Below, piece after piece: positions 19,445 through 61,563 of a stretch of 64,000 nucleotides of DNA (its first letter is position 1; each line of letters begins with the position of its first letter). The notes beneath the pieces are model-generated. The model did not search any database and was not told where the DNA came from. It saw only the letters and a list, made by a program, of their open reading frames with translations. Source of the DNA: Flammeovirgaceae bacterium SG7u.111 (GTDB taxonomy: Bacteria > Bacteroidota > Bacteroidia > Cytophagales > Flammeovirgaceae); the NCBI GenBank assembly GCA_034044135.1, contig CP139021.1, positions 5,161,635 through 5,225,634 on the forward strand, in the 5' to 3' direction. The translations under genes were made by a program, and so were the position numbers.

Positions 19445-19873
19445 TTAGTTACCTCCATCTTCAGTTTCTTCAGTAATAGTAGCATCACCGTCTTCAGCAG
19501 GCTCGGTAAGTTCTAAAATAGCGTCGTCAGACCCCTCACCTTCTTCAGGAAGAGGAACTTCCAAATCCTCAGGAATAACACTTCCACCTACAGCACCACC
19601 ATCGGTAGCACGCTCAATGTTTGGAGAGTTTATCCCTTGGCTATTACCACTTCTATCGATAAAAACCTGAGAACCAAGAGCCAATACAAACAATGCAACT
19701 GCAAGAGTCCATGTCGCTTTTTCTATCCAATCAGTAGTGCGGCGAGTACCCATAAGCTGGCTAGCACCACCCATATTACCTGTCAATCCTCCGCCCTTCG
19801 AATCTTGCGCAAGGACTACCAACACCAAAAGGGTTGCAATTACCAGAATCAATACTATTATAAAAACTAACAT
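19445..19873 (-). CDS. secG: Preprotein translocase subunit SecG
   Basis: A 142-residue inner-membrane subunit of SecYEG. Two transmembrane segments (about 2-22 and 52-72) flank the SecG signature VLAQDSKGGGLTGNMGGASQ and RRTTDWIEKATW. The C-terminal 60 residues are a hydrophilic, Asp/Glu-rich extension, common in Bacteroidota SecG. The gene is 6 bases after the small TPR gene and last in the run from 21204. Confidence 0.93.
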   Translation of the reverse strand: MLVFIIVLILVIATLLVLVVLAQDSKGGGLTGNMGGASQLMGTRRTTDWIEKATWTLAVALFVLALGSQVFIDRSGNSQGINSPNIERATDGGAVGGSVIPEDLEVPLPEEGEGSDDAILELTEPAEDGDATITEETEDGGN

Positions 19874-19879
19874 TTTTTT

Positions 19880-20170
19880 CTACTCTTTTCTTAGATTTTC
19901 AATAAGGTTTGCAAAGTAACTGCTTTTTTGGGGATATTTCAATATCAACTGCTCATAAATATTAATAGCTTTCTCATTTTTCCCCTGCTTAGCCAAAATC
20001 CTTGCATAAGTTTCGGTTGCTTTGAAACCTTCCGTCGCTACACTTTTTTCATACAGATCAAGGGCTAGATCCACCGAAACCTCCTCTTTTACATTTGGTC
20101 TTATGCTTGGCAGCTTGTGCATAAAGTTGTCTATAATCTCTTTTTGCCGCTCACTAGTAATATCAATCAT
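19880..20170 (-). CDS. Small TPR-like protein, probably the C-terminal part of the preceding gene product
   Basis: A 96-residue protein with a TPR-like pair of helices: TYARILAKQGKNEKAINIYEQL (about 58-79) and a final LKYPQKSSYFANLIENL. Bacteroidota usually carry one longer protein at this place before secG, with an acidic middle and exactly this C-terminus (family knowledge, not searched). Here the ATG overlaps the TGA of the upstream gene (ATGA) at an 11-A tract, so the two may be made as one protein by slippage, or be translationally coupled. Confidence 0.65.
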   Translation of the reverse strand: MIDITSERQKEIIDNFMHKLPSIRPNVKEEVSVDLALDLYEKSVATEGFKATETYARILAKQGKNEKAINIYEQLILKYPQKSSYFANLIENLRKE

Positions 20171-21204
20171 TTTTTTTTTTCGTCTTTATTCGAATCCTCG
20201 TCTTCGTCAATCATTGTGTTCAAATCAAAAAACGAAGAATCTATATCCACATCATCATCGTCGTCATCCAATACTTCAAAGGCATCATCTTCTAGTTTTT
20301 CATCACTAGGAAAGATAATGGCATCGTCCTCTTTCGTATCCAATTCTTTAAGCTCGCCCAAGTCATCACCTAGACCAAGATCTTCCATATCTTCAAAGTC
20401 TTCTTCTTTAGGAATTGGAATGGGTTCTGGAACAACTGGGTCTGGAATAGGAGTATCCTCCACTACCCTCGCAGATTCATCTTCAGCCACCTGCTCTCTT
20501 GTCCTTTTTAAGTCTTCCAAGCTCTTCATCAACTCAGACCTAAACACATCCTCGTCTTCTAAATTCAGTTCTTTTGAAATAGGCTCTACAGCCGGAACTT
20601 CTTCCACTTCATTTGTCACTGTTTCGGTTTCATCTTCACTATCCTCAACAGAGTGTTCTTCTTGCTCTAATTTACCATAATCAGCAGGCAAATCATACTC
20701 AGGAGCATCAAACTCCACAGACTTCTCTTCTATTTCAGCTTTATATTCTTGGTAGCCCTCATCCACCGCTTCTTCTTCAAATGTTTCTTTTTCAAAGGGT
20801 TCATCGACAGGCATAGTTTCTTGACCATACTCCACAGAAGAAAACTCTTCTTCTACTATTGGCACAGAAACCTCAGGCTCTTCTGTAACCTGCGTTTCTG
20901 CCTCATCGCCCGAAAGGCTAGAAAAAGCATTTACAGCACCATCTTCTACATTTATATGGTCGATATTAGGCAAGTTGATGTCTTTATCGAAACTGCTATT
21001 GATCAGTTTCATAAGCAAGACCCTATCGGAGGTAAGCACTGCCGCAGACTTGATTGCCTCCGAGGTTTTTAATGCTTTGGCCCTCAACAACTTTACCGCT
21101 TGGAAATAGGGATATTCCTCTGCCAAACTATCGAGCATCGCTACATCCGACTCACTTACAGCATCGGGCTCTTTTATCAATACGGCTAGCCTATCTAATT
21201 CCAC
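20167..21204 (-). CDS. Acidic TPR-associated protein, upstream part of a split gene
   Basis: A 345-residue, strongly acidic protein. Residues 1-80 are helical (LAEEYPYFQAVKLLRAKALK), as in the N-terminal domain of Bacteroidota TPR proteins near secG. Residues 85-340 are low-complexity Glu/Asp/Val-rich with no fold recognised. It ends ...SNKDEKKK at GAA AAA AAA AAA TGA. The only in-frame start after the upstream stop is GTG at 21204 (no ATG). One extra A read at the A11 tract (20170-20180) would continue into the 96-residue TPR protein. It may be a scaffold linked to envelope genes (lptE, secG). Confidence 0.65.
   Translation of the reverse strand: MELDRLAVLIKEPDAVSESDVAMLDSLAEEYPYFQAVKLLRAKALKTSEAIKSAAVLTSDRVLLMKLINSSFDKDINLPNIDHINVEDGAVNAFSSLSGDEAETQVTEEPEVSVPIVEEEFSSVEYGQETMPVDEPFEKETFEEEAVDEGYQEYKAEIEEKSVEFDAPEYDLPADYGKLEQEEHSVEDSEDETETVTNEVEEVPAVEPISKELNLEDEDVFRSELMKSLEDLKRTREQVAEDESARVVEDTPIPDPVVPEPIPIPKEEDFEDMEDLGLGDDLGELKELDTKEDDAIIFPSDEKLEDDAFEVLDDDDDDVDIDSSFFDLNTMIDEDEDSNKDEKKK
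20170..20180 (-). promoter_or_regulatory. A11 homopolymer at a gene junction, possible slippage site
   Basis: Eleven consecutive A on the coding strand sit immediately before TGATTGAT. In frame 0 this reads AAA AAA AAA TGA. With one added A, or a -1 slip, it reads AAA AAA AAA ATG ATT GAT and enters the downstream frame. Confidence 0.5.
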
Positions 21205-21345: not shown

Positions 21346-21876
21346 CTACCAATCTGCCACTGTCTTGTTATAGATATCAAAAATTATCTGTTCAAAAATC
21401 TCGTCAATCAGACCCTGCTCCACATCGGAAATATTTTCATCTGCAGGAAAGTCCGCCCAAAATTGGAAACTTTGATTTTCGAAACTTGTCTCCTCGTCAA
21501 AAAGATTGATATAGTTAACAGATACAGAGATAGTTAAACGCTGCAATTGCGCTCCTTGGAACTCTCCCGCCCCAGCTGCCACCGGGTTGATTCTATATCC
21601 TGTAATCCGACCTGAAAACTGTAAATCGCCATTTCCAATTTTCTGTTCCAAAGGCGAATTTCGTTGGTAATACTCTCGCATTTCCTCGGTAAACCTAATG
21701 GCCAAGTCAGCAGGCCCATCGAATGCCTCAAAGGCAAAGTTATCTACTGAAAATGTCTTTACTTCAGGAGGCAGATTAAAGCCTGTGAACGTAGCATTTG
21801 GCAACCTCCTACAAGAAGCCAAGACAATGAGCAAGGGCAATCCTACCCTCAACAAAAACATATATTTTCTATTCAT
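21346..21876 (-). CDS. lptE: LptE-like LPS-assembly lipoprotein
   Basis: A 176-residue outer-membrane lipoprotein that would plug and assist LptD in inserting LPS. I chose ATG 21876 because it gives a proper lipoprotein signal (MNRKYMFLLRVGLPLLIVLA) with lipobox ASC. The core beta-sandwich signature of Bacteroidota LptE (FTEEMREYYQRNSPLE, LQFSGRITGYRINPVA, SFENQSFQFWADFPADENI) is clear. The start lies 8 bases inside the end of the sigma-54 regulator gene, so translation is coupled. This regulator-lptE pairing is common in Bacteroidota. Confidence 0.85.
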   Translation of the reverse strand: MNRKYMFLLRVGLPLLIVLASCRRLPNATFTGFNLPPEVKTFSVDNFAFEAFDGPADLAIRFTEEMREYYQRNSPLEQKIGNGDLQFSGRITGYRINPVAAGAGEFQGAQLQRLTISVSVNYINLFDEETSFENQSFQFWADFPADENISDVEQGLIDEIFEQIIFDIYNKTVADW

Positions 21877-23164
21877 CAATGTCATAAAGCTTAATTTTCC
21901 TATACAGCGTCCTCTCCGAAATACCCAAATCTCTCGCCGCATCTTTTCGTTTCTTACTGTTCTTTTTCAAGGCTTTCACTATCATCTCTTTCTCATTTTT
22001 TTGCAAAGAAAAAGACTCATCTTCCATCTCGTGGGTAATATCGTCAATAGTGTCGATATTCAATGTTTTTTTAGAAGCCCTGCCTTCGTTACCAACATAG
22101 GACAAGTAACCATCGTCATCGGACTCATCATCTGTGTGAGTATCGTGCGCATGAGGCACAGTAGGCATTAGTGAATCGGGTTTGGCATACACGGGACTCT
22201 GCCGTTCTACGCCCGGGCCAGCGCCCATTCCCAACACTATTTTTTTCAACTCCGCAACATCTCTTTTGAGTTCAAAAAGAACTTTATAAAGCAGATCCCG
22301 CTCGGAAAAACTATCAGATGTGTTTGCGTTGATTCTATCTTGTTGATTTACCAATGCAGGGAGATAGTTTGATTGGTTGGCAGGCAAGTACCTGCGCAAG
22401 GTTTCCGCAGAAATGAATCTATCGGACTCCATCACAGACATTTGCTCTGCAATATTTTTAAGTTGGCGGATGTTCCCTGGAAACCTAAACCCCATCAATA
22501 AATGTTGGGCCTGTTCGTCAAGCACCAATGGTTTCGCACGGTTTATTTCTGCAAAATCGGAAGAAAACTTCCTAAAAAGCAAAAGGATATCATCGCCTCG
22601 CTCCCTCAATGGGGGCACATAAATGGGGATAGTACTGAGTCTGTAGTACAAGTCTTTTCTAAACTTTCCATCTTCTACATGCTTCCACAAATCCACATTG
22701 GTAGCTGCAACCACCCTCACATCGGTCTTTCTTATTTTTGAAGAACCAACCTTTATAAACTCTCTGTTTTCAAGTAGCCTCAATAGTCTAGCTTGAGTTT
22801 CCAAAGGCATTTCGGCAATTTCATCTAGGAAAATAGTACCCTTATCAGTTACCTCAAAATAACCTTTTCTGGCCTCTGTAGCACCTGTAAAAGCTCCTTT
22901 TTCATGTCCAAAAAGTTCAGAATCAATGGTTCCTTCTGGCAACGCACCACAGTTAAGGGCAATAAACTCACCGTGTTTTCTATGGCTGAGCTGATGGATG
23001 ATTTTGGAAAAAGACTCTTTACCACTACCACTCTCTCCCGTTATGAGCACCGTAGAATCCTTAGGTGCAACCAGCATAGCCACCTCTATAGCTCTATTGA
23101 GCGAGGGGGCGTTTCCAATGATACCAAAGCGTTGTTTAACCGATTGAATGTCTTCTATATCCAT
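21869..23164 (-). CDS. Sigma-54 interaction domain / Fis-family transcriptional activator
   Basis: A 431-residue AAA+ enhancer-binding protein. There is no N-terminal receiver domain; the AAA+ domain begins almost at once. Walker A is GESGSGKES (about 43-51), the sigma-54 contact motif GAFTGA is intact (about 90), Walker B is GTIFLDEIAEM (about 108-118), and the arginine-finger region includes FRKDLYYRLS and PLRERGDD. A 120-residue acidic linker follows, then a C-terminal Fis-type helix-turn-helix (KRKDAARDLGISERTLYRKI). Lack of a sensor domain suggests control by level or a partner. Its targets are unknown; it overlaps lptE. Confidence 0.9.
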   Translation of the reverse strand: MDIEDIQSVKQRFGIIGNAPSLNRAIEVAMLVAPKDSTVLITGESGSGKESFSKIIHQLSHRKHGEFIALNCGALPEGTIDSELFGHEKGAFTGATEARKGYFEVTDKGTIFLDEIAEMPLETQARLLRLLENREFIKVGSSKIRKTDVRVVAATNVDLWKHVEDGKFRKDLYYRLSTIPIYVPPLRERGDDILLLFRKFSSDFAEINRAKPLVLDEQAQHLLMGFRFPGNIRQLKNIAEQMSVMESDRFISAETLRRYLPANQSNYLPALVNQQDRINANTSDSFSERDLLYKVLFELKRDVAELKKIVLGMGAGPGVERQSPVYAKPDSLMPTVPHAHDTHTDDESDDDGYLSYVGNEGRASKKTLNIDTIDDITHEMEDESFSLQKNEKEMIVKALKKNSKKRKDAARDLGISERTLYRKIKLYDIDE

Positions 23165-60519: not shown

Positions 60520-61563
60520 TTAAGCTACTATTTTTTTTTTAGCCTTGTATGTAAAACCTTCATACAGCCCTTTAATAGTATAGCGCAAGTTCTTCTTCTT
60601 TTGAGTGATACGCATAGTATTAAGGAAAGCAGGAACTACCGATACCACATTATAGAACATTCCATAGTGCTTCTTCAGGAAGATCATGTGGTTCTTGTTC
60701 AACTGATAGTAATAGAACTCCTTGATGTCTTTTGTACTTGAGCTATCTTTATGGAACACTTTGCTATCCAAAGCTACAGACAGTTTCCAGCCTTCTTTTT
60801 TCATGCGGTGCATCCAATCCATTTCCTCTACATACACAAAATACTCTTCGTCTATCAAACCAACTTCATCAAGTACTTCCTTACGAACCAATACGGATGC
60901 TCCCATAAGGAAATCAAGCTTTTCTACTGCCTCTTCCTTTGTAACATTGTCAAGCTCAGAAATGTGCATATTCTTATACTGAAGCTTTGTAGCTGACAAT
61001 AGTGGATAGAACTTCCCTCCACCTATGGTCTGAATTTTCTCTTTTTCACCGTGATAAATCAAGACAGAGCCTACCATACCTATTTTCTCATCAGACTCTA
61101 TCTCAGTCACCATAGTAGATAAAGAATCTGGCACTACTTCCGTATCGTTGTTAAGCATCCAAGCATACGAATAATCTCCTTGCTCCATTATGTACTTAAA
61201 ACAAGCGTTTTGCCCACCTGCAAAACCAGCATTTTGTAACTTGTTAACTACAAGCACAGGGTGCTGAAAAGGATTGCTTTCTCTAGAGGTTTTATGCTCA
61301 AACTGAATAGTGTGATCTTCGTTAAGAACAGTAATATCTACATCACCTATTTTCTCTTTAAGGTAGTCAGTGTACTCCTGCTCCTTACACTCTCCTGTCA
61401 TTAAATCTTTGAATACTTCAACTGAGCCATTTGAAGAGCCATTGTCTACTATCAAAATTTGAAAGTTTGGATCTTGAAGCTTTGTTAGGCTAGCGATACA
61501 TTCTACAGTATCATTATAATTGTTCCAGTTAACTAGTGTGATGTAAACTTTAGATTCTGCCAT
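60520..61563 (-). CDS. Glycosyltransferase family 2 (rhamnosyltransferase-like)
   Basis: A 347-residue GT-A glycosyltransferase. ATG 61563 opens MAESKVYITLVNWNNYNDTV. Motifs are LIVDNGSSNGSVEVF, LQNAGFAGGQNACFKY, the metal-binding AWMLNNDTEVVP, ASVLVRKEVLDEVGLIDEEYFVYVEEMDW and a final basic tail. The G-F-A-G-G-x-N stretch and E-E-x-D-W motif resemble rhamnosyltransferases. It likely adds a sugar to a surface polysaccharide. Confidence 0.88.
   Translation of the reverse strand: MAESKVYITLVNWNNYNDTVECIASLTKLQDPNFQILIVDNGSSNGSVEVFKDLMTGECKEQEYTDYLKEKIGDVDITVLNEDHTIQFEHKTSRESNPFQHPVLVVNKLQNAGFAGGQNACFKYIMEQGDYSYAWMLNNDTEVVPDSLSTMVTEIESDEKIGMVGSVLIYHGEKEKIQTIGGGKFYPLLSATKLQYKNMHISELDNVTKEEAVEKLDFLMGASVLVRKEVLDEVGLIDEEYFVYVEEMDWMHRMKKEGWKLSVALDSKVFHKDSSSTKDIKEFYYYQLNKNHMIFLKKHYGMFYNVVSVVPAFLNTMRITQKKKNLRYTIKGLYEGFTYKAKKKIVA

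Follow-up and report, generated by a model that had tools for sequence, protein, structure and literature searches.

In the genome of Flammeovirgaceae bacterium SG7u.111 (hereafter G000), a gene adjoining secG is split in two at a run of eleven A's (A11), and we consider it somewhat likelier than even, judging from the sequence, that transcriptional slippage at this run yields both a short and a full-length protein from the one gene. The split, the tract, the relation to unsplit homologues and a recoding design at an A10 run in dnaX, conserved throughout the family, are observed; from these we infer slippage at the A11, its rate and the importance of the two forms.

A split gene beside secG

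The A11 tract proposed as the slippage site lies at positions 20170–20180 of the 64-kb window (the whole stretch of DNA analysed) on the minus strand, appearing as T11 on the plus strand. The minus-strand junction is GAC GAA AAA AAA AAA TGA, in which ATG ATT overlaps the stop as ATGA (20167–20170, minus strand), an overlap also found after the A12 run of the relative G003. The N-terminal half is a 345-codon ORF (20167–21204, minus strand) with a GTG start, which ends in ...DEKKK and TGA and consists of a conserved N-terminal segment and an acidic linker; a Pfam search with this half retrieved no family at E ≤ 1. The C-terminal half is a 96-codon ORF in the -1 frame (19880–20170, minus strand), the ATG of which overlaps the last A of the tract. 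The sequence bore out the initial annotation on both ORFs and their overlap. An A-run of at least nine at the frame junction is thus present (A11), with TGA directly 3' of it, followed by 96 codons in the -1 frame that are homologous to unsplit proteins. The frames of the two ORFs are joined by one more A or by two fewer.

The initial annotation called the 96-codon ORF a TPR gene. Pfam TPR models do match it, but all of them under their curated cut-offs (TPR_6 at 23.3 bits against 26.3 and TPR_19 at 21.0 bits against 25), so that "TPR-like" is the safe name. Each of the two ORFs matches a different part of the unsplit protein of G003, namely residues 5–141 at 39% for the N-terminal half and residues 469–570 at 53% for the C-terminal half; G003 has the closest C-terminal half (54% identity). 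These matches show the 345-codon and 96-codon ORFs to be the halves of one gene. The length of the A11 rests on one assembly, and the genus is represented by a single genome in the comparison.

All neighbouring genes lie on the minus strand. Downstream is secG (19445–19873; Pfam SecG, 2.3e-17) and upstream is an lptE-like gene (21346–21942; Pfam LptE, 7.2e-12), with a sigma-54 interaction-domain regulator (21869–23164; Pfam Sigma54_activat, 3.3e-67) as the next gene beyond it. The lptE-like/secG setting was identified by Pfam in G000 and by eye in four genomes other than G003.

Homologues across the order

The search with the C-terminal half matched 50 of 58 genomes including G000, and the frame containing the match was at least 219 codons long in 45 of the other 49. 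Among the remaining four, the gene of G019 is split, whereas G042, G043 and G057 each have a short gene with no second half upstream. Matches were found in 15 of the 18 genomes of the family of G000; no match was found in G006, nor in G009, which belongs to the same genus as G003 and so is not usable as a near comparison. A profile search with the C-terminal domain across the order matched 353 of 390 genomes, with frame lengths for the best matches; a further search gave frame lengths for 80 of 80 other matching genomes, picked by hand.

Altogether, 142 distinct homologous frames were examined (loci L033–L179 and L195–L202, being other genes or duplicates, and identical sequences were left out), and 140 of them were unsplit, one of these being cut by a contig end. 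The locus upstream of secG thus normally encodes one protein, as had been claimed at the outset. The initial annotation had named a regular split at one position among orthologues as refuting its own proposal, and this was looked for and not found. The set contains six frames open at the locus edge, and some frames may be paralogues. Splits were flagged only where the C-terminal frame was shorter than 185 codons, so that breaks further upstream would escape. Nine of the 142 frames were below this length, comprising the two splits, one contig end and six short genes. The 87-codon frame of G127 was rejected as a split because it is the contig end, as were the short frames (134–181 codons) of G042, G057, G043, G221, G214 and G098, which have no separate upstream half. 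The short frames of G084, G134, G164, G172 and G179 are known by length only.

The two split genes, those of G000 and G019, are both interrupted at an A11 with the C-terminal half in the -1 frame. G019 belongs to another family, and its gene (L180/L302, contig C4), which lies between lptE-looking and secG-looking ORFs as judged by eye, is broken as ...SPKKKK-TAA with no ATG at the junction.

As a separate observation, locus L029 (G021 C1:8404103-8404354) has a TPR-like C-terminal domain that lacks the conserved end after LKYPKK, and its profile match reads through a TAG, possibly owing to another frameshift near the gene end. An internal stop was also seen in the C-terminal domain matches of G378, G093 and G077.

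Long A-runs in the genome and its relatives

The genome of G000 (7.72 Mb in 2 contigs) contains 11-A matches at seven positions, which come down to six separate tracts, one of them A12 and the other five A11; runs of exactly ten A's number 28 and runs of exactly nine 217. Within the window, six A9 matches stand against a shuffle mean of 10.7, and 88 of 100 shuffles reached six; as the count is not above that of the shuffles, there is no general enrichment in runs; the rarity lies in a run this long falling within a gene. In a sample of G000 covering 464 kb (20 stretches and the window), the only run of at least 11 A's inside an ORF of at least 150 codons was that of the TPR-like gene. Lys-Lys-Lys was written as AAA-AAA-AAA in 3 of 78 cases in this sample, against 24.1 expected from codon use, and in 2 of 46 cases in a 400-kb sample of G003, against 19.3 expected. 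Long A-runs are strongly avoided in both samples, and the TPR-like gene supplies one all-AAA case in each, being by position the sole coding A11 in the former and the coding A12 in the latter. The avoidance of long A-runs has been reported in AT-rich genomes, and that of slippage-prone runs is evident from nine A's in many genomes (PMC1088944).

Every tract of A10 or longer and 30 of the 217 A9 tracts in G000 were checked for broken frames. Those found at the former were the TPR-like gene, dnaX and an overlap at L080, and six other A10–A11 runs sit in intact long frames (L033, L039 and L097, judged by frames of at least 80 codons on both sides, and L087, L090 and L076, judged by frame lengths). 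At L080 (G000 C1:3167645-3167656), an A10 followed by ATGA, the same form of junction as in the TPR-like gene, joins two ORFs that look unrelated and resemble a methyltransferase and a glycosyltransferase by eye. At 60531–60540 of the window (L088), an A10 closes a long ORF, which extends for about 355 codons before the run and stops at a TAG just after it; no long continuation of the frame was found downstream by the 80-codon rule.

The homologue of G003 is an unsplit gene of 571 codons with A12 and then TGAGG at the equivalent spot, so that a single A separates the split frame of G000 from the fused frame of G003. The claim that one added A fuses the halves was confirmed both by the frames and by this fused A12 homologue. 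In genus g8, an in-frame A10 occurs at the aligned Lys-Lys-Lys in G011, and G007 has the gene without the run. Elsewhere in the family, the genera with the gene (g2 with nine species, g3 and g5) show no run of eight or more A's in it. Nine other frames of the 142 contain a run of at least ten A's in frame and are unsplit; thus, a gene need not be split because it has a long run. At least seven genes have a run of A9 or longer within 30 codons upstream of the C-terminal domain, a lower bound because an earlier domain was taken as the start of the C-terminal domain in the multi-domain ORFs L005 and L231; the split count is independent of this assignment. Where a run and its length are conserved, this is taken to indicate that slippage serves a purpose (PMC1088944); neither was found to be conserved among the TPR-like homologues (A11, A12, A10 or none). 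In homologues, most in-frame runs of A9 or longer have a nearby stop after them in the -1 frame, on which we make no claim, since such stops are common in the background, occurring within nine codons of 57% of linker codons generally and after 66% of other Lys triples.

For the pair of G000 and G003, in contrast to what drift alone would make likely, the evidence suggests that the run has been kept by constraint. Four-fold sites were near saturation, with 0.297 identical against 0.252 expected over 795 sites (from the 16 reciprocal gene pairs, out of 35, with at least 50% identity), Lys codons agreed at 0.625 against 0.597 expected by chance, and all-AAA Lys triples made up about 4% in each genome. 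It is the persistence of an uninterrupted run in both genomes despite synonymous saturation and the rarity of all-AAA triples that points to constraint, an argument built on small numbers and on a test devised after the site had been seen. In the dnaX tree, G000, G003, G009, G007 and G006 fell in one clade (99/96); no dnaX of G011 was found.

dnaX, proposed slippage and the alternatives

The dnaX gene of G000 (L110/L086; C1:4810698-4811807, outside the window) has a gamma-like ORF of 370 codons (...KKKIA), which ends at an A10, beyond which the -1 frame stays open for 193 codons; its first half matches the DNA polymerase III gamma/tau models. Among the 17 dnaX loci of the family, of which one is cut by a contig end, all 16 readable ones have two ORFs with an A10 and the tau part matched in the -1 frame. 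A further 20 loci of the order, the best-matching half of 40 other genomes, comprised 11 with two ORFs (180–235 open codons in the -1 frame) and nine with a single ORF, so that the two-ORF design has been gained or lost between families; our claim of homology is limited to the family loci. The run at the 27 two-ORF loci is A10 in 25, A9 in one and A11 in one. This lineage keeps a gene, dnaX, whose long product needs recoding at an A10 in the same direction as at the TPR-like gene. The two-ORF design of dnaX was already published in 2013 (PMC3711429). The dnaX of G019 is a single ORF; hence, a split TPR-like gene and a two-ORF dnaX need not go together.

We propose that one ancestral gene encoded an N-terminal domain, an acidic linker and a TPR-like C-terminal domain, with Lys-Lys-Lys in the linker written as an uninterrupted A-run. 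Standard reading of the A11 would lead to TGA and to an N-terminal protein that lacks the TPR-like domain. In some of the transcripts, slippage of RNA polymerase on the A11 is expected to insert one more A, which would give ...DEKKK-MIDITSER..., a full-length protein with the junction peptide ...DEKKKMIDITSER..., and hence two length forms from one gene, of about 345 and 441 residues. In Escherichia coli and Buchnera, insertions in transcripts become exponentially more frequent as the run lengthens (PMC5574713). Slippage at the TPR-like gene is made more plausible by the dnaX of G000 and by the A11 case of tssM1 in Citrobacter rodentium. In the latter, an A11 before the stop allows about 20–25% frameshifting to full length and both lengths are needed, and slippage was evidenced by mass spectrometry of RT-PCR products, blots and reporters (PMC4256274). 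The TPR-like gene resembles tssM1 in being broken at an A11 with a stop close behind it, where added A's restore the full protein, and it differs in encoding another protein, in that its slippage is predicted from sequence, and in having its stop directly after the run, where that of tssM1 follows 28 nt after it. In the same account, tssM3 of Yersinia pseudotuberculosis is unsplit and slips on its poly-A run to a short form (PMC4256274); the tssM1/tssM3 pairing is the closest parallel to the split A11 gene of G000 and the fused A12 gene of G003.

The likeness to two-ORF dnaX is that the first ORF ends just past the A-run, the -1 frame encodes the C-terminal part and the long form needs recoding (PMC3711429). 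With the A9 of Thermus thermophilus dnaX, the TPR-like gene would share transcriptional slippage on an A-run and two protein lengths, although standard reading there gives the long form and here the short one (PMC1088944 and PMC3711429). Unlike the dnaX run, which is kept (A9–A11 at 27 of 27 two-ORF loci), the run of the TPR-like gene varies and is mostly absent, so that a selected or programmed two-length switch at the TPR-like gene is no more than a possibility. Its extended version, in which a two-length TPR-like protein beside secG depends on a slippage site that selection has kept across three genera (A11, A12 and A10) against strong genome-wide avoidance, with a DNA frame that favours the short form in one genus and the long form in the others, and with a second origin in the family of G019, we put forward tentatively and as unlikely on the whole. 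No publication naming the TPR-like gene was found among the titles and partial abstracts of the open-licence papers listed, which is weak evidence of absence, and "tetratricopeptide" was not found in the main text of PMC3711429.

If slippage does occur, what is one gene with two products would be misannotated as a pseudogene or as two genes, and this gene adjoins genes for envelope and secretion biogenesis. G000 and G003 would also be a matched pair (A11/A12) for testing selection on an A-run in and out of frame.

The main rival is an error of assembly, in which case the gene would be unsplit, its true run being the A12 seen in G003. Long reads tend to miscall homopolymers, the G000 assembly in 2 contigs may rest on such reads, and the deficit against G003 is exactly one base. 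We nevertheless regard an error as rather improbable: six other coding A10–A11 runs of G000 are intact, so that the assembly is not generally wrong at such runs, dnaX, the other broken gene, is broken alike throughout the family, and G019 provides another split homologue. The split may also be a recent one-base indel in the A-run.

The same fused protein would be made if ribosomes, rather than RNA polymerase, shifted to the -1 frame on A_AAA_AAA; the slippery heptamer is in phase, GA[A AAA AAA] AAA TGA, with UGA directly after the run. However, no structure was predicted in the 90 nt downstream, where 195 of 200 shuffles folded at least as well (z +1.73; pseudoknots are outside the model). The A11 also exceeds the nine-A threshold of avoidance (PMC1088944), and insertions in transcripts increase with run length (PMC5574713). 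The ribosomal route therefore appears improbable, and transcriptional slippage remains our preferred reading.

We find it very improbable that the ORFs encode two separate proteins, the second translated by termination-reinitiation at the ATGA with the A-run as a leader. An A-rich leader does precede the overlap, and at L080 an ATGA after an A10 likewise joins two ORFs that look unrelated; against this, the homologues are one protein in nearly all frames, and the gene of G019 is split with no ATG at the junction. Phase variation, in which the run length in DNA would switch the TPR-like domain off at A11 and on at A12, is the least probable of all, for though the run is in frame in G003 and out of frame in G000 (one assembly per species) and replication is liable to slip on such runs (PMC1088944 and PMC3711429), a gene adjoining secG does not appear to be an obvious surface gene.

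Elsewhere among the homologues, L012 (G026) and L028 (G044), both of family f10, are unsplit and have an in-frame A11 in Lys-rich linkers 17–23 codons before the C-terminal domain, and these runs may be slippage sites toward a short form.
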